Assembly (NCBI GenBank): GCA_027067855.1
Contig: JAMOUX010000018.1
Span: forward strand, 1-37,766
DNA from: Candidatus Fermentibacteraceae bacterium
GTDB lineage: Bacteria; Fermentibacterota; Fermentibacteria; Fermentibacterales; JCC-6
Reading direction: 5' to 3'
DNA length: 37,766 nucleotides
Positions 24,727-31,834 of the stretch are shown here, piece by piece (positions within the stretch are counted from its first letter, which is position 1; every line of letters begins with the position of its first letter). A model generated the notes under the pieces. The model was not told the origin of the DNA and did not search any database. It saw only the letters and a list, made by a program, of their open reading frames with translations. Position numbers and translations under genes: made by a program.

Positions 24727-24759
24727 CATGGATTCGTTCCGAAAGGAGTCCCATCGACC

Positions 24760-26694
24760 GTGATAAGGAAAATGGGTGACGTAACGCCGGAAGATTACCT
24801 CGAAATAGGCTTGAAGAGCGGGCTGGAAATACACCAGCAGCTGGACACGGAACGGAAGCTGTTCTGCAGGTGTCCGGTCCTTCCATACTCGGACGAGTAC
24901 GACGGAACCATCCTTCGCCACATGAGGCCTACGCTTTCGGAGCTGGGCGAGTACGACGGTACGGCCCTGATGGAATTCAAGACCAGGAAAAACATAATCT
25001 ACAGGATCAACAGGAAGACGATCTGCACATACGAAATAGATGATACGCCGCCCTTCGAACTAAACAGGCAGGCATTGGAAATAGCGCTGGAGATAACGAT
25101 GCTCCTGAATTGTAAACTGGTAAGCGAAATACACATCCAGCGCAAGCAGTACCTGGACGGTTCCATTCCTGCGGGGTTCCAGAGAACGACGATACTGGGT
25201 GTGGATGGGTGGATTCCTTTCCGGGGAAGAAAGATAGACATAGTTCAGTTGGGCCTGGAAGAGGACGCCTGCAGAGAAGTGAGCGACCGGGGGCATGAAA
25301 GAGTGTATCTTACCGACAGGTTGGGCATGCCGCTGATAGAAACGGTGACGGCACCCCAGATGAGAACCCCGCAGGAAGTTGCGGCGGTGGCGAATACCCT
25401 GAGGAATCTGGCGAGAGCCTCGGGCAAAGTAAGAACAGGTATAGGTGCGGCCCGCCAGGACGTAAACGTATCCGTAAAAGGCGGCAGGAGAGTGGAAATC
25501 AAGGGGGTATCCAGGATCCACGATATCCCGATGCTTGTTCATAATGAAGCTTTCAGGCAGGTTTCGCTTCTGGAAATAAGAGACGAACTGCTTGCAAGGG
25601 GAATGGGGCCGGAAGATTTCGAATACACGGTGAAAGATATCACGGAACTCCTTCGGAATGCATCCTTCGAACCCTTGGCATCTGCTCCGGGAAAAGATTT
25701 CCAGGTCCGGGCGGTGCTTTTGAGGGGATATGCCGGCATACTTTCCGTGCCCCTTCAACCCGGCAGAACTTTCGCCGACGAGATTTCCGACAGAGTCAGG
25801 GTCATCGCCTGCCTCGACGTTCTGCCGAACATCCTGTACGACGATATGACCGGCGGAGAAGGTCTTTCCGCCGGGAAATGGAGCGAGGTGCGAAAAGCGG
25901 TTGCGGCGGGTGACGGCGATGCCGTGGTGTTGGTATGGGGACCGATGGAGGATCTGGAAACCGCCGTGGAGGAAATAGCGATAAGAGCCGGAGAAGCGAT
26001 GGATGGTGTTCCTCACGAGACCCGCCAGGCTTTTCCCGATGGAACCACCGGTTTCGAAAGAATACTTCCGGGACCCGACAGGATGTATCCCGATACCGAC
26101 CTGCCCCCCCTGGCGATAAGTGACGCACTGATAAAGAAGATACGTTCCGGTTTACCGGAGAGGCCGTGGGAAAGGGAGAAACGGTACCTGGAGGCCGGAG
26201 TTCCCGAAGAATCGGCGCACAATCTGAGCATTTCGCCCGGGAGGTTCGCTTTCGATTCCGCCATGAAGGATACGGATTATCCGCCCAGGCGGCTGGCCCA
26301 TTTCTTCCTGAGTGTCCTGGGGCACTTAAAGGCCAAGTACCCGGAAGCTTCGCCCGGGTACGATACCGTCCTGAAAGTACTGAAATCCTGTTCCGAAAAC
26401 GGTCTGCCTCTGGAAGCCGCGGAAGCGGTGCTGGTCGGGGCGGCAATCGGAGACGTGCGGAATCCGGAAGAATTCATCTCCGGCTTCAGGCTGCCCGGTA
26501 AAACCGATGTCGAGGAAACGGCGGAAAAGATAATGAAGGAAGTCGACCTCGACGGCATGATGCCGGACCGGGCCGTGCGTTACGTCACGGGGCTGGTCAG
26601 GAAAAGACTGGGTGGAATACCCGGAGGGATCCAGGTGATGGAGACGGTTGCCGCTATCATTGAATCGCCGGGACGCGGAGAAGAGGAGAACTGA
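24760..26694 (+). CDS. gatE: Archaeal-type Glu-tRNA(Gln) amidotransferase subunit E
   Basis: 644 residues from a GTG with AAAGGAG 11 bases upstream; ATG 24772 is an alternative. The N-terminus 'DYLEIGLKSGLEIHQQLDT' followed by 'KLFCRCP' is characteristic of GatE and differs from bacterial GatB. 'EIHIQRKQYLDGSIPAGFQRT' continues the kinase-like cradle. The middle part ('AVLLRGYAGILSVPL', 'GRTFADEISDRVRV') matches the AspRS-like insertion that GatB lacks. The C-terminus is helical like the YqeY tail. With GatD it amidates Glu-tRNA(Gln) to Gln-tRNA(Gln) using ammonia from Gln or Asn. The system is regarded as archaeal. Only 2 bases separate it from gatD. Confidence 0.93.
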   Translation: MIRKMGDVTPEDYLEIGLKSGLEIHQQLDTERKLFCRCPVLPYSDEYDGTILRHMRPTLSELGEYDGTALMEFKTRKNIIYRINRKTICTYEIDDTPPFELNRQALEIALEITMLLNCKLVSEIHIQRKQYLDGSIPAGFQRTTILGVDGWIPFRGRKIDIVQLGLEEDACREVSDRGHERVYLTDRLGMPLIETVTAPQMRTPQEVAAVANTLRNLARASGKVRTGIGAARQDVNVSVKGGRRVEIKGVSRIHDIPMLVHNEAFRQVSLLEIRDELLARGMGPEDFEYTVKDITELLRNASFEPLASAPGKDFQVRAVLLRGYAGILSVPLQPGRTFADEISDRVRVIACLDVLPNILYDDMTGGEGLSAGKWSEVRKAVAAGDGDAVVLVWGPMEDLETAVEEIAIRAGEAMDGVPHETRQAFPDGTTGFERILPGPDRMYPDTDLPPLAISDALIKKIRSGLPERPWEREKRYLEAGVPEESAHNLSISPGRFAFDSAMKDTDYPPRRLAHFFLSVLGHLKAKYPEASPGYDTVLKVLKSCSENGLPLEAAEAVLVGAAIGDVRNPEEFISGFRLPGKTDVEETAEKIMKEVDLDGMMPDRAVRYVTGLVRKRLGGIPGGIQVMETVAAIIESPGRGEEEN

Positions 26695-26696
26695 TC

Positions 26697-28088
26697 ATGT
26701 CCGCAACGGAAGAGAAATACAAGGGATACCGCGGCAAGAGTCTCGACTGCCTCAAAAGGTTCGATGTAGGCGTATGGTCGGATGTCACCATAGAATCCAC
26801 CAGGGGTACCTTCAGCGGTGTGATACTGCCGAGGTCGGAAACGGCGGATGACCAGCACGTGGTAATAAAGATCCATAACGGCTATAACGTGGGAATAGAC
26901 GTTGATACCATTAAATCCATGAAAGAACTCGGTAGAATAGAAGCTCATTATAAAATACCCGAGAAGGAATTTCCCTACGATCCGGCAAAACCCAACGTCA
27001 AGCTCTTCGGTACCGGCGGCACGATAGCATCCAGGTTGGATTACCGTACCGGTGCGGTGATTCCGGCTTTCTCTCCCGGGGAACTCTACGGTTCCGTGCC
27101 GGAACTTGCTGACATATGCAATCTCAAGACGGAGAAACTCTACGGGGTATTCAGCGAGAACATGGGGCCGGAGCAGTGGAAGGGAACCGCCGAGGCCATA
27201 GGCAGGGAAATAGAGAAAGGTGTCGATGGAATAGTCATAGGACACGGAACCGACACGATGCACCATACTGCGGCGATACTCTCCTTCATGGTTCAGAATT
27301 CCCCGGTACCCATAGTGATGGTGGGTTCCCAGCGCTCCAGCGACAGACCTTCCAGCGATGCGGCCCTGAACCTGATGAACGCCGTCTACACTGCGGCCGA
27401 GAGTGATATGGCAGAAGTCATGGTATGCATGTTCGGTCCCACCAGCGATGAGTACGGCCTGCTTCACAGGGGTACCAGGGTACGGAAGATGCATTCCTCT
27501 TACAGGTCGACTTTCAGAACCATAGGCGACATACCCCTTGCAATGGTGAGCAGGAGCGGGATAAGGATACTCAAGGAAGACTACAGTAAGCGTAGAAATG
27601 ACAAGAACGTAAAGATAAACACGGCATTCGATCCGCGGGTATCCATAGTGTACTACTATCCCAATATGCAGCCGGACATAATCGATTCGCTGGTGGACAA
27701 CGGCTACAAAGGAATAGTGATAGCCGGAACGGGTCTGGGGCACGTCAATAAACCCTTGTATCCCGCTCTCAGGCGGGCTTTCGAACACGGTGTCCATATC
27801 TACATGACGGTACAGACCTTGTGGGGCTACGTGCAGATGTTCGTGTACGACACGGGCAGGGATATTATGGACCTCGGAGTGGTGCCTGCCGCCAACATGT
27901 TGCCGGAAGTGGCCTACATGAAGTTATGCTGGGCTCTGGGTCAAACCCATGACCGGGAGGAGGTCAGGGAGATAATGTGCACTCCGATAGCTGGGGAAAT
28001 CACGGAGCGCGAGCCTCATAACGGCTACATAATCCTGCAGGGCGGCATCCCGGAAGTCGAAGAGTTCCTAAGTAAATACAACCGTTGA
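26697..28088 (+). CDS. gatD: Archaeal-type Glu-tRNA(Gln) amidotransferase subunit D
   Basis: 463 residues, longer than a plain asparaginase (~330) because of an N-terminal ~95-residue GatD domain ('VGVWSDVTIESTRGTFSGVI'). The asparaginase-like domain has the catalytic elements GTGGTIAS (T109) and GHGTDTM (T185, D186), and 'MVGSQRSSDRPSSDAALNL', the GatD version of this helix. It releases ammonia from Gln or Asn for GatE. All expected catalytic residues are present, so the pair should work. It is separated from gatE by 2 bases and followed by a strong terminator, so gatE-gatD is a self-contained unit with its own promoter candidate. Confidence 0.94.
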   Translation: MSATEEKYKGYRGKSLDCLKRFDVGVWSDVTIESTRGTFSGVILPRSETADDQHVVIKIHNGYNVGIDVDTIKSMKELGRIEAHYKIPEKEFPYDPAKPNVKLFGTGGTIASRLDYRTGAVIPAFSPGELYGSVPELADICNLKTEKLYGVFSENMGPEQWKGTAEAIGREIEKGVDGIVIGHGTDTMHHTAAILSFMVQNSPVPIVMVGSQRSSDRPSSDAALNLMNAVYTAAESDMAEVMVCMFGPTSDEYGLLHRGTRVRKMHSSYRSTFRTIGDIPLAMVSRSGIRILKEDYSKRRNDKNVKINTAFDPRVSIVYYYPNMQPDIIDSLVDNGYKGIVIAGTGLGHVNKPLYPALRRAFEHGVHIYMTVQTLWGYVQMFVYDTGRDIMDLGVVPAANMLPEVAYMKLCWALGQTHDREEVREIMCTPIAGEITEREPHNGYIILQGGIPEVEEFLSKYNR

Positions 28089-28244: not shown

Positions 28245-28787
28245 ATGAACATAGAGATCAGTGCAAGACATTTCGACCTCACCGACGCATTGGAGAACCA
28301 CGTAAAAAAGAAACTTAAAACCCTGAAAAAATTCTACGACGGTATCATGGACGTACACGTCATACTGGAGGTGAACGCGGGAATCGACAGGGTTCACATA
28401 CAGGTGCGCGGAAAACATGTGAAACTTGATGCTAAGGCCGAGGCCCACGACATATACCTCGCTTTCGACGACGCCTACGACAACATAGAGCACCAGGTGA
28501 GAAAGTTTAAAGACAAGAAACACAACCACAGAAAATCGCATTCTCAGGTCGACGACACGTTGAGTCTCTACGTACCGGCGGAAGAATCCGAATACGACAA
28601 GCCGGTTTTCATAGACGATACCCAGGTTTTTCCGAAACTCGGAACCGAGGAAGCGATAATGAAGTTCGAGATGGAGCCCTCCAACGATTTCATTTTTCAG
28701 AACGAGGAGACCGGCAGGCTCAGCGTGGTTTACGTCTCGGTGACCGGCAAAACCCAAGTAGTGGAACTCGTCAGGAAACAGAAATAG
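28245..28787 (+). CDS. hpf: Ribosome hibernation promoting factor, long form
   Basis: 180 residues with a strong AGGAG before the ATG. The N-terminal ~100 residues are the S30AE/YfiA fold ('MNIEISARHFDLTDALENHVKKKLKTL', 'DRVHIQVRGKHVKLDAKAEAHDIYLAFDDA'). After a linker, the C-terminal ~58 residues ('GTEEAIMKFEM.PSNDFIFQN', 'GRLSVVYVSVTG') are the dimerisation domain of long HPF proteins. Such proteins pair 70S ribosomes into inactive 100S dimers in slow growth. The gene starts a block with hprK, ptsH and ptsI; hpf next to PTS-regulatory genes is also known in Proteobacteria. Confidence 0.93.
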   Translation: MNIEISARHFDLTDALENHVKKKLKTLKKFYDGIMDVHVILEVNAGIDRVHIQVRGKHVKLDAKAEAHDIYLAFDDAYDNIEHQVRKFKDKKHNHRKSHSQVDDTLSLYVPAEESEYDKPVFIDDTQVFPKLGTEEAIMKFEMEPSNDFIFQNEETGRLSVVYVSVTGKTQVVELVRKQK

Positions 28788-28803
28788 CGGATCGGCTGAA
28801 AGA

Positions 28804-29814
28804 ATGGAGATTCCGTCCGGGGAAAACTTGACCGTAGGCATGCTCTATGAGTTAATGTGGGATAAACTGTGTCTGGAGTCAGTCAACGGATCTACCGGAC
28901 ACGACCGGAAAGTTCTTTCCCCCGACATAAGCAGGCCGGGCATGGCTCTCACGGGCTACCTGCACAAGTTTCTTCATGAGAGGATACAGATATTCGGAGA
29001 AACGGAGATATCGTACCTGCAATCCCTCTCGGAGCGGGAACGTGAAGAAGCGCTCCGAAATATTTTCAGATTTCCAGTATACTGTTGCATAGTCACTAAG
29101 GGCCTGGCTCCTCCCGGGCAGTTGGTGGAACTGTGCACCTCGAAATCGGCGGCCCTCTTTCGCTCCAGAAGAGATACCACGCCCCTGATTCACGACCTCT
29201 GCGGTTTCCTGGAAACGGTTTTCGCACCTTCCACCAACCTGTACGGAACCCTTGTGGAAGTTTACGGCGCCGGGTTGCTGTGTACGGGGAAGAGCGCCAT
29301 AGGTAAAAGCGAGGCGGTGCTGGGACTCATAGAGAGAGGTCACCATCTCATTGCCGACGACAGGGTTCACGTGAAAAAGATCGGTAACTCCCTCGTAGGT
29401 TCCGGGGATCCCGGCATGGCGCACCGAATGGAGATAAGGGGACTCGGCCTTGTTGACGTGTCCGCCTTCTACGGGATAAGGGCGGTCAAGTCCAGGCAAC
29501 AGATTCACCTGGAGGTGAATCTCAAGGAATGGTCCAGGGAAAACCAGGAATTCGATCGCACCGGGCTGTTCCAAAAAGTCAGCACGATATTGGATATACC
29601 GATACCGAAAATAGTCATCCCGGTTCTTCCCGGAAGGAACCTGACGCTTCTGCTGGAAGTGGCGGTCATGAATTACCTTTTGCTCCAGAACGGCAGGAAT
29701 GTCCCCGAGGAGGTCGAGAGGGAACTCATCGGAAGGATCCTTGCCAAGGAAAGCGGAACCGGTAACCCCAGGCACAGGCACACCGGAGGCGGAATTGAAG
29801 ACCGAAAGCACTAA
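28804..29814 (+). CDS. hprK: HPr kinase/phosphorylase
   Basis: 336 residues. The N-terminal half is the variable HprK domain ('DISRPGMALTGYLHKFLHERIQIFGETEISYL'). The kinase half has a P-loop GKSAIGKSE (162-170), where the common form is G.SGIGKSE, so Ala165 replaces Gly. 'HHLIADDRV' and the signature 'MEIRGLGLVDVSAFYGIRAV' follow. It phosphorylates HPr on Ser46 and can reverse this depending on metabolite levels. Its substrate gene ptsH overlaps its 3' end. The C-terminal ~20 residues are polar and probably disordered; they overlap the ptsH start. Confidence 0.94.
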   Translation: MEIPSGENLTVGMLYELMWDKLCLESVNGSTGHDRKVLSPDISRPGMALTGYLHKFLHERIQIFGETEISYLQSLSEREREEALRNIFRFPVYCCIVTKGLAPPGQLVELCTSKSAALFRSRRDTTPLIHDLCGFLETVFAPSTNLYGTLVEVYGAGLLCTGKSAIGKSEAVLGLIERGHHLIADDRVHVKKIGNSLVGSGDPGMAHRMEIRGLGLVDVSAFYGIRAVKSRQQIHLEVNLKEWSRENQEFDRTGLFQKVSTILDIPIPKIVIPVLPGRNLTLLLEVAVMNYLLLQNGRNVPEEVERELIGRILAKESGTGNPRHRHTGGGIEDRKH

Positions 29815-30061
29815 AGTAGTCAATAAGCTGGGGATACACGCAAGGCCGGCGGCCCAGATAGTGAAAACGGCTTCGAAATTCGATAGCGACATAGAGCTTA
29901 CCGTAGACGGAATCACAGTCAATGCGAAGAGCATCATGGGAGTCATGACTCTGGCGGCCTGCAGGGGAACCGAAGTAAGGGTGACCGCCAGGGGAAAAGA
30001 CGAGGATGAGGCCGTGGATGCCTTGATAAAACTCCTCGAAAGCGGTTTCGGAGAGGACTAG
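29795..30061 (+). CDS. ptsH: Phosphocarrier protein HPr
   Basis: 88 residues from a TTG at 29795 with GGAGG 6 bases upstream. This start places the active-site His exactly at residue 15 ('GIHARPA') and the HprK target Ser at residue 46 ('KSIMGVMTLA'), the canonical HPr numbering, which supports the choice over a longer frame. It takes phosphate from EI on His15 and can be phosphorylated on Ser46 by HprK. It overlaps the end of hprK by 20 bases and lies 3 bases before ptsI. Confidence 0.96.
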   Translation: MKTESTKVVNKLGIHARPAAQIVKTASKFDSDIELTVDGITVNAKSIMGVMTLAACRGTEVRVTARGKDEDEAVDALIKLLESGFGED

Positions 30062-30064
30062 GCT

Positions 30065-31834
30065 TTGAGTATAAGGTTGAATGGAGCTCCTGCTTCTCCG
30101 GGCGTGGCCATCGGCCCGGCGTTCCTTCTCGACGTCGAAGAAATACGTGTCGCGAAGAAGGAGATCCACAGCGAGGAAGAAGTAGAACGGGAACTCAAAA
30201 GATTTCACGATGCGCTGAACAAAACCAGGCGTGAACTCGAGACCATAGCCCGACGGGTGAGCGATGTCATAGAAGGCCGGCAACTCATAGAGGTGCACAT
30301 GCTTCTTCTCAATGATCCGTCGATGATAGCGGAGGTGGAGAGAAGGATAAGAACGGAGAAAGTATCCGCCGAGTACGCGGTAAGCCGCACACTGTATGAC
30401 GTCCTCGAGAGATTCGAGGACATGGAGGATCCTTATCTCAGGAGCAGATCGGCGGACATACGCGACGTGGGGCGAAGGGTGATAGCGAATCTTCTCGGTA
30501 CCGAGCGCGAAGCTTTGCTCAATATGAAGACTCCCGTGATACTGGTTTCCAACGATCTGGATCCGTCCCAGACCGCCGGACTATCCAGGAAGCAACTGCT
30601 TGGGATAGTGACTGATCTGGGAGGGGTGACTTCCCATACCGCCATACTTGCCAGGAGCCTGGGTATCCCGGCCGTCGTGGGACTGAAAAACGTGGCCGAA
30701 ATAGTGGTCCCCGGACAGACGGTAATAATAGACGGGATACACGGTAACGTAATCCTGGATCCCGATCCGGAAGAATTGGACTATTACACGAAACTCATGG
30801 AGCGGTACCAATCGGCGGAGAGGGAGATAGCCAGAAACGCGGACAAGGAAGCAGTGACTTCCGACGGCAGACCGGTGGAACTTTCGGCCAACATAGAATT
30901 CTCCCAGGAGGCCGACCAGGTCAGGAAATTCGGCGGCAGGGGCGTCGGTCTTTTCAGAACGGAATTTATAAAACTTATCGCTCCCGGGATGCATGATGAC
31001 GAGGAGATGCATTTCAGGGCTTATCGCCATGTCCTGGAGGTACTCGACCCTGATCCGGTCATAATAAGAACCCTGGATCTTGGAGGCGACAAGTTTCTTG
31101 AGGAGGTTCCCACCAGAGAGCGGAATCCCTTCCTGGGCTGGAGGGCCATAAGAATCTGCCTGGATAGGCCGCAGAATTTCATGATGCAGTTACGGGCGCT
31201 TCTCCGGGCGGCGAGGTTCGGCAACGCCAGGATAATGCTGCCGTTGATAACACACAGGGAACAGGTGCTACAGGTCGAACGTATGTTGAATACTCTTGCG
31301 GAAGAGCTGGATTCCTCCGGAATCGAGAGGGGTGAAATACCGCCCCTGGGAATAATGGTCGAAACTCCGGCGGCCGCGCTGGCGATAGACACACTCCTGC
31401 CGGTGACGGATTTCGTTTCCATAGGAACCAATGATCTCACTCAGTACACCCTTGCCGTGGACCGCGGAAGCCCATACGTATCCAAATTGTTCGATTCCTT
31501 CCATCCCGCGGTTGTGAGGCAACTGGAGTTGGTGATACGAAAGTGCAGGGAAGCGGGAACCTGGGTGGGAGTCTGCGGTCAAATGGCCGCGGAGCCCCTT
31601 GCCATACCATTATTGATAGGTTTCGGAGTCGATGAACTGAGTGTTGCGACTACGATGATTCCCGACGTGAAGGAGATGGTGCGGTCGTTGGATTCCAGGC
31701 GAGCCGAGGAACTGGCCGTAAAATCCCTGGAACTGGCTTCCGCCGAGGAGATACGCAGCCTGGTACTGAAATACGTGGAAAAAAGGTATCCCGAGATCAT
31801 ATTGGATGAGATTATCAGGAGCGGAGAGGAGTAG
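30065..31834 (+). CDS. ptsI: Phosphoenolpyruvate-protein phosphotransferase (PTS enzyme I)
   Basis: 589 residues from a TTG, close to the usual length of EI. The swivelling His domain has 'GGVTSHTAILARSLGIPAV' with H191. The PEP-binding barrel has 'GVGLFRTEFIKL', 'RTLDLGGDK', 'VSIGTNDLTQYTLAVDRG' and the active Cys C504 in 'GVCGQMAAEP'. It transfers phosphate from PEP to HPr. No sugar-specific EII genes are in the window, so the EI-HPr-HprK set may be mainly regulatory. It is co-directional with ptsH and runs to within 8 bases of the next gene. Confidence 0.96.
   Translation: MSIRLNGAPASPGVAIGPAFLLDVEEIRVAKKEIHSEEEVERELKRFHDALNKTRRELETIARRVSDVIEGRQLIEVHMLLLNDPSMIAEVERRIRTEKVSAEYAVSRTLYDVLERFEDMEDPYLRSRSADIRDVGRRVIANLLGTEREALLNMKTPVILVSNDLDPSQTAGLSRKQLLGIVTDLGGVTSHTAILARSLGIPAVVGLKNVAEIVVPGQTVIIDGIHGNVILDPDPEELDYYTKLMERYQSAEREIARNADKEAVTSDGRPVELSANIEFSQEADQVRKFGGRGVGLFRTEFIKLIAPGMHDDEEMHFRAYRHVLEVLDPDPVIIRTLDLGGDKFLEEVPTRERNPFLGWRAIRICLDRPQNFMMQLRALLRAARFGNARIMLPLITHREQVLQVERMLNTLAEELDSSGIERGEIPPLGIMVETPAAALAIDTLLPVTDFVSIGTNDLTQYTLAVDRGSPYVSKLFDSFHPAVVRQLELVIRKCREAGTWVGVCGQMAAEPLAIPLLIGFGVDELSVATTMIPDVKEMVRSLDSRRAEELAVKSLELASAEEIRSLVLKYVEKRYPEIILDEIIRSGEE

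Follow-up and report, generated by a model that had tools for sequence, protein, structure and literature searches.

The window analysed here, a stretch of 37,766 nucleotides, is the entire contig C18 (JAMOUX010000018.1) of a 1.86 Mb metagenome-assembled genome (MAG) of a Candidatus Fermentibacterota bacterium (GCA_027067855.1). On its forward strand lie gatE (positions 24760-26694) and gatD (26697-28088), which encode the two subunits of a GatDE-type tRNA amidotransferase. We show that, for the archaea sampled, the pair belongs to an old clade and is a lineage trait rather than a recent archaeal acquisition. Co-occurrence shows in addition that this clade, denoted GatDE2 (our own label for the deep, mostly bacterial GatDE clade), is an accessory beside direct charging of tRNA(Gln) and not a substitute for GlnRS.

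The GatE and GatD subunits

The gatE gene encodes a kinase/transamidase subunit of 644 residues from a GTG start codon; gatD, encoding the asparaginase-type, ammonia-producing subunit of 463 residues, starts 2 bases past the gatE stop codon on the same strand. Both subunits are catalytically complete, which bears out an earlier sequence-only reading of the window that had described them as intact and adjacent. The assignment of GatE is based on an NCBIfam equivalog, solved structures, phylogenetic trees and an AlphaFold model searched with Foldseek. GatE scored 509.6 bits against the equivalog NF003107 (cut-off 456) and 459.5 bits against TIGR00134 (cut-off 319.6); against GatB models it reached at most 154 bits, well under each model's own cut-off. 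Among solved structures, the archaeal GatDE complexes 1zq1 and 2d6f come closest to both GatE and GatD. The AlphaFold model of GatE (mean pLDDT 83) matched 1zq1_C and 2d6f with E ~1e-42, and the predicted structure keeps the overall architecture, including the helical and tail regions. The AspRS-like insertion domain noticed in the sequence-only reading is indeed present (GatE residues 286-415, approximate borders; positions 25615-26004, plus strand), as seen in the alignment to 1zq1 and in the structure-model matches; the archaeal insertion motif FHxDELPxYG is absent from it, and is lost throughout GatDE2. The GatE catalytic residues H25, R128, K129, E167, E168, R187, E194, R232, D234, N236, E246 and K248 are invariant across GatDE2; these kinase/transamidase residues are also common to archaeal GatE and, nearly always, to GatB.

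GatD scored 520.5 bits against NF003217 (cut-off 310) and contains the Pfam domain GatD_N. The N-terminal domain and residues T109, T185 and D186 claimed beforehand were thus found, together with K264; these asparaginase-type catalytic residues are invariant within GatDE2. Across phyla, GatD shares 65-87% identity with the window protein (mean column identity 74%). Type I L-asparaginase (AnsA) has the fold and the T/T-D/K residues that GatD contains, but GatD differs from it by the N-terminal GatD_N domain, the GatE partner and the GatD profile score. A misreading of AnsA and GatB as GatDE is ruled out by the profile scores; the pair is a true GatD-GatE pair.

Several positions are fixed in both groups and separate GatDE2 from archaeal GatDE, among them (archaeal residue in brackets) Y131 (V), I136 (N), P137 (T), D95 (E), T185 (L) and D445 (E) in GatE, and F246 (H), T272 (A), T275 (S), T374 (C) and N400 (D) in GatD. 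The GatE active-site loop (residues 126-143, IQRKQYLDGSIPAGFQRT; positions 25135-25188, plus strand), which contains the invariant GatDE2 pattern RKQYLDGSIPxGFQRT, is GatB-like because GatB has Y, L and P at sites 131, 136 and 137. GatD ends in a C-terminal extension (residues 436-463, TEREPHNGYIILQGGIPEVEEFLSKYNR; positions 28002-28085, plus strand) with positions that never vary in GatDE2 and that archaeal GatD lacks (conserved pattern REPxNGYxxxQGGxPEVExF). As this tail is poorly predicted in the structure model of GatD alone, its folding may depend on the complex.

Phylogeny, spread and genomic context of GatDE2

The archaeal sample of the GatE tree comprised Thermoplasmatota, P. abyssi and M. 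thermautotrophicus. The window GatE fell within a clade of bacteria and eight Thermoplasmatota sequences (SH-aLRT 100, stem 1.31). A GatB-rooted tree over 362 shared columns recovered GatDE2 and classical archaeal GatE as monophyletic groups, each with 98/98 support, and the GatD tree gave the identical split (support 100, stem 1.15), with a warning of some long archaeal rows. The GatE and GatD trees agree in placing the window pair as sister to, not inside, the sampled archaeal clade. The description of the pair as archaeal-type in the sequence-only reading therefore does not hold in the sense of a recent transfer, since it belongs to a sister clade that is widespread in bacteria. For the sampled archaea, the reciprocally monophyletic clades rule out a recent transfer; because TACK, Asgard and DPANN archaea lay outside the sample, GatDE2 may still have originated among them. 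An unannotated gatE on the Natrinema thermotolerans plasmid CP031304.1 (L201), whose halves lie in different frames and which may be a pseudogene or reflect a frameshift in sequencing, was left out of the trees.

A pattern-based scan with the window GatE was evaluated for the best 80 loci of 235 relatives, 79 of which are titled bacterial or plain 'bacterium'. Hosts among these listed loci include Bacteroidota (with five Marinifilum isolates), Acidobacteriota, Zixibacteria, Krumholzibacteria, Latescibacteria, Gemmatimonadota, Planctomycetota, Calditrichota, Cloacimonadota, Aminicenantes, Ignavibacteria, Edwardsbacteria and others. GatDE2 ranges over ~14 bacterial phyla and a few Thermoplasmatota. 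The single archaeal-titled locus (L079), a mislabelled-looking match, comes from a genome whose genes look archaeal, as judged from open reading frames; the Thermoplasmatota genomes were reached through it and used after a check for archaeal genes.

The closest named matches of the window GatE come from Candidatus Fermentibacterota, in which 35 of 42 genomes overall and 22 of the 24 good-quality ones have a GatB_N match. This makes GatE a lineage trait, one of the two origins envisaged at the outset, rather than contamination; a recent gift from archaea is not supported. The good-quality genomes without GatE (G013 and G041) also have no GatD over the cut-off, a joint absence that is expected for one complex. 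The two genes are adjacent in the genus of the window, and gatD lies downstream of gatE in most of the listed loci across phyla. For two further genera of the family, and for family f2 within the order, the stretches examined have no gatD beside gatE; GatD is encoded elsewhere in these genomes and hence accompanies GatE even when unlinked. The unlinked GatE proteins of other Fermentibacterota (L145-L160) are ~575-600 residues long and form their own long-stemmed subclade; their insertion is slightly shorter (median 118 vs 129 residues). No neighbour besides the gatD-gatE partner recurs widely among the loci compared, and the operon context gives no functional clue.

In the window, a Shine-Dalgarno-like AAAGGAG (positions 24742-24748, plus strand) precedes gatE, and a scan for promoters and terminators revealed nothing exceeding shuffled sequences. 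The neighbouring genes are bacterial and encode an ntrB-type kinase, an ntrC-type regulator, Hpf, HprK, HPr and PtsI. Positions 28245-31834 comprise hpf-hprK-ptsH-ptsI; no sugar permease of the phosphotransferase system (PTS) was recognised among the annotated window genes, as in a regulatory PTS. The host MAG has 98.9% completeness and 0.19% contamination. Contamination or misbinning, already judged unlikely from the flanks in the sequence-only reading, is ruled out by these bacterial flanks, the phylum-wide presence and the cultured isolates with GatDE2.

GatDE2 beside GlnRS and the charging genes of the host

GlnRS and GatB were searched for in 67 genomes, nearly all with GatDE2 and including a few Fermentibacterota without it. 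GlnRS was over its cut-off in 60 of them, with fragments in several more, and GatB in 14. Among Thermoplasmatota, GlnRS exceeded the cut-off in 8/11 genomes with GatDE2, in 6/9 without GatE over the cut-off and in 0/19 with classical GatE only (Fisher p = 3e-5 for 8/11 vs 0/19, uncorrected for relatedness). GatDE2 is thus found with GlnRS, and classical GatDE alone never in this sample; GatDE2 is therefore accessory to GlnRS. The GlnRS of Thermoplasmatota, over the curated cut-off in 14 of 39 genomes (e.g. L267-L276), is an observation in its own right.

The host conforms to this pattern. Its GlnRS scored 735 bits (cut-off 426), which rules out GlnRS absence, and it also encodes AsnRS and a bacterial GluRS. 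A search of the genome found no amidase/GatA and no GatB besides GatE, and hence no GatCAB. Of the prediction that the host would either lack GlnRS or have a redundant route, only the second branch stands. The non-discriminating GluRS that was also predicted is not supported: in the alignment, R408 of the host GluRS lies at Arg358, the discriminating residue of Thermus GluRS, and the same arginine is found in 18/20 GluRS from other GatDE2 genomes. The signature is imperfect, as this mark fails in H. pylori (PMC3927822). In the host genome, gltX (L003:1348-3114) is directly followed by tRNA-Glu(CTC).

These data bear on the reading in which archaeal GatDE was transferred recently and makes Gln-tRNA(Gln), as in archaea, by way of a non-discriminating GluRS. 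The family identity and the description of GatDE as archaeal speak for it; the presence of GlnRS, the discriminating arginine, the reciprocally monophyletic clades and the phylum-wide presence make it highly improbable.

Both host tRNA-Gln have U1-A72, whereas tRNA-Asn, tRNA-Asp and tRNA-Glu have G1-C72; among these four kinds of tRNA, U1-A72 is restricted to the two tRNA-Gln. The first base pair of tRNA-Gln, which the sequence-only reading had named together with the D-loop for GatDE recognition, is thus not the archaeal A1-U72. A degenerate tRNA (L130, G000:C29:7413-7683; 27.7 bits, below the Rfam cut-off) is near tRNA-Gln(CTG) but has anticodon CCG and no CCA; it is likely a tRNA-Gln pseudogene or an attachment-site relic.

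Function and relation to known amidotransferases

GatDE2 shares with archaeal GatDE (1zq1, 2d6f) the two subunits, the GatD_N domain joined to an asparaginase fold and the catalytic residues, and within GatE the catalytic domain, the AspRS-like insertion and the helical and tail domains, at 37-39% identity in Foldseek structural alignments. It differs as a separate deep clade with the Y131/I136/P137 loop and the GatD C-terminal extension and without FHxDELPxYG, in a host with U1-A72 instead of A1-U72 in tRNA(Gln), and in its company: archaeal GatDE occurs without GlnRS, GatDE2 with it. Classical GatDE is specific for Glu-tRNA(Gln).

We favour, at about an even chance of being right, the interpretation that gatE and gatD specify a functional tRNA-dependent amidotransferase of two subunits with an accessory role, most likely repair of, or backup through, Glu-tRNA(Gln). 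Judging from the conserved catalytic residues and the chemistry of the family, GatD would free ammonia from glutamine or asparagine, and GatE would phosphorylate the side chain of a tRNA-esterified acidic amino acid and then transfer the ammonia to it. Glu-tRNA(Gln) would arise from misacylation by GluRS or GlnRS or from glutamine shortage, and GatDE2 would turn the stray product into Gln-tRNA(Gln), providing both repair and backup. Glu-tRNA(Gln) is the likeliest acceptor because the family acts on it and because tRNA-Gln alone of the four has a weak first pair.

Several points weigh against repair of Glu-tRNA(Gln). U1-A72 is weak evidence because it is also usual in tRNA(Gln) charged by GlnRS. 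The apparently discriminating GluRS may leave little Glu-tRNA(Gln) to repair, and we found no published measurement of amidation for any GatDE2 member. A different acceptor is suggested by the loop resembling that of GatB, the missing insertion motif and the added tail of GatD. Finally, the Thermoplasmatota MAGs G103 and G112 encode GlnRS, GatDE2 and classical GatDE together, a triple set that is hard to explain if all serve one reaction. Contamination of G112 is argued against by an archaeal glycerol-1-phosphate dehydrogenase on the contig of its GatE2 gene. The classical GatDE of G103 and G112 (L238/L280 and L245/L281; GatE2 at L254 and L253) is very fast-evolving, with GatD end branches of 3.4-4.0, and looks as if decaying or changing after GlnRS gain.

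The sole AspRS of the host raises a different possibility. It is of the archaeal type, passes the 'aspartate--tRNA(Asn) ligase' models, has the Thermus non-discriminating (ND) AspRS2 as its best solved match and carries Pro at the site equivalent to K85. Such an enzyme could charge tRNA(Asn) with Asp for amidation by GatDE2 to Asn-tRNA(Asn), for which Deinococcus and Thermus, with ND-AspRS and GatCAB in addition to AsnRS and GlnRS, are a precedent. GlnRS, AsnRS and an amidotransferase in genomes without AsnA/AsnB have been explained by tRNA-dependent asparagine synthesis (PMC4206432), and AsnB (TIGR01536) was not found over the cut-off in the host genome, which has no GatCAB either. The three GatB-like loop residues fit as well, GatB accepting both Asp and Glu. 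We regard this route as a serious rival, although an unlikely one. The host tRNA-Asn has G1-C72, whereas bacterial GatCAB needs U1-A72, and Gln at the His/Trp specificity site leaves the specificity of the AspRS ambiguous. AsnB was over the cut-off in 44 of the 73 genomes searched (nearly all with GatDE2), which rules out AsnB absence as a general GatDE2 correlate. The Glu-tRNA(Gln) specificity of classical GatDE counts against this route too.

GatCAB of bacteria and archaea, too, can occur together with GlnRS and AsnRS, and its GatB is homologous to GatE with the similar Y, L and P; it differs in that GatB has no insertion and in its ammonia source, which is GatA (amidase signature) with GatC. 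The dual routes of Deinococcus/Thermus and Bdellovibrio (AsnRS, GlnRS, AspRS and GatCAB) likewise keep an amidotransferase beside both direct synthetases, and Thermus has an archaeal-type AspRS as in the host. The host differs from them in that its amidotransferase is GatDE, its tRNA-Asn has no U1-A72 and its AspRS is single.

GatDE2 could also act outside the Gln/Asn pathway and amidate another acceptor, such as a different aminoacyl-tRNA or an acid, either free or bound to protein. The fixed changes, several of them near active sites (GatE V131Y, N136I, T137P, E95D and L185T; GatD H246F, C374T and D400N), would fit this proposal, as would the lost insertion motif, the conserved new tail, the long stems, the high conservation of GatD, the strong tie to GlnRS genomes and the coexistence with classical GatDE in two archaea. 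It is nonetheless improbable, as the GatE architecture with its helical and tail regions and the GatE-GatD pairing are retained, and no conserved neighbour indicates a different pathway. In a broader form, GatDE2 would be a separate bacterial family with a changed acceptor (e.g. Asp-tRNA(Asn) or another acid) that never makes bulk Gln-tRNA and that moved between bacteria and Thermoplasmatota carrying GlnRS; we consider this a serious possibility, although it is probably not the case.

Two reviews from 2022 restrict GatDE to archaea: one (PMC8762117) calls it an archaeal signature protein that 'exists exclusively in archaea', and the other (PMC9499178) has it 'now only' in archaea, with GlnRS absent from all archaea. 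The sequence-only reading had named as evidence against itself that such pairs are already widespread and described in the phylum; they are widespread, and no description of bacterial GatDE was found in the open literature, which omits most subscription papers. NCBIfam models already name such proteins GatD/GatE, and the sequences are therefore catalogued even if not discussed. All three review statements (GatDE exclusive to archaea, GatDE now only archaeal, no archaeal GlnRS) are contradicted by the GatDE clade in ~14 bacterial phyla, cultured Marinifilum included, and by the GlnRS-type genes in Thermoplasmatota.

Taken together, GatDE2 is a variant of a known enzyme and a previously little-noticed branch of it. 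The deep split within GatDE is relevant to the argument according to which bacteria lost this enzyme after the last universal common ancestor. Its presence beside GlnRS raises the question of what role a tRNA amidotransferase plays where a direct synthetase exists, and the cultured hosts make the function of GatDE2 testable.

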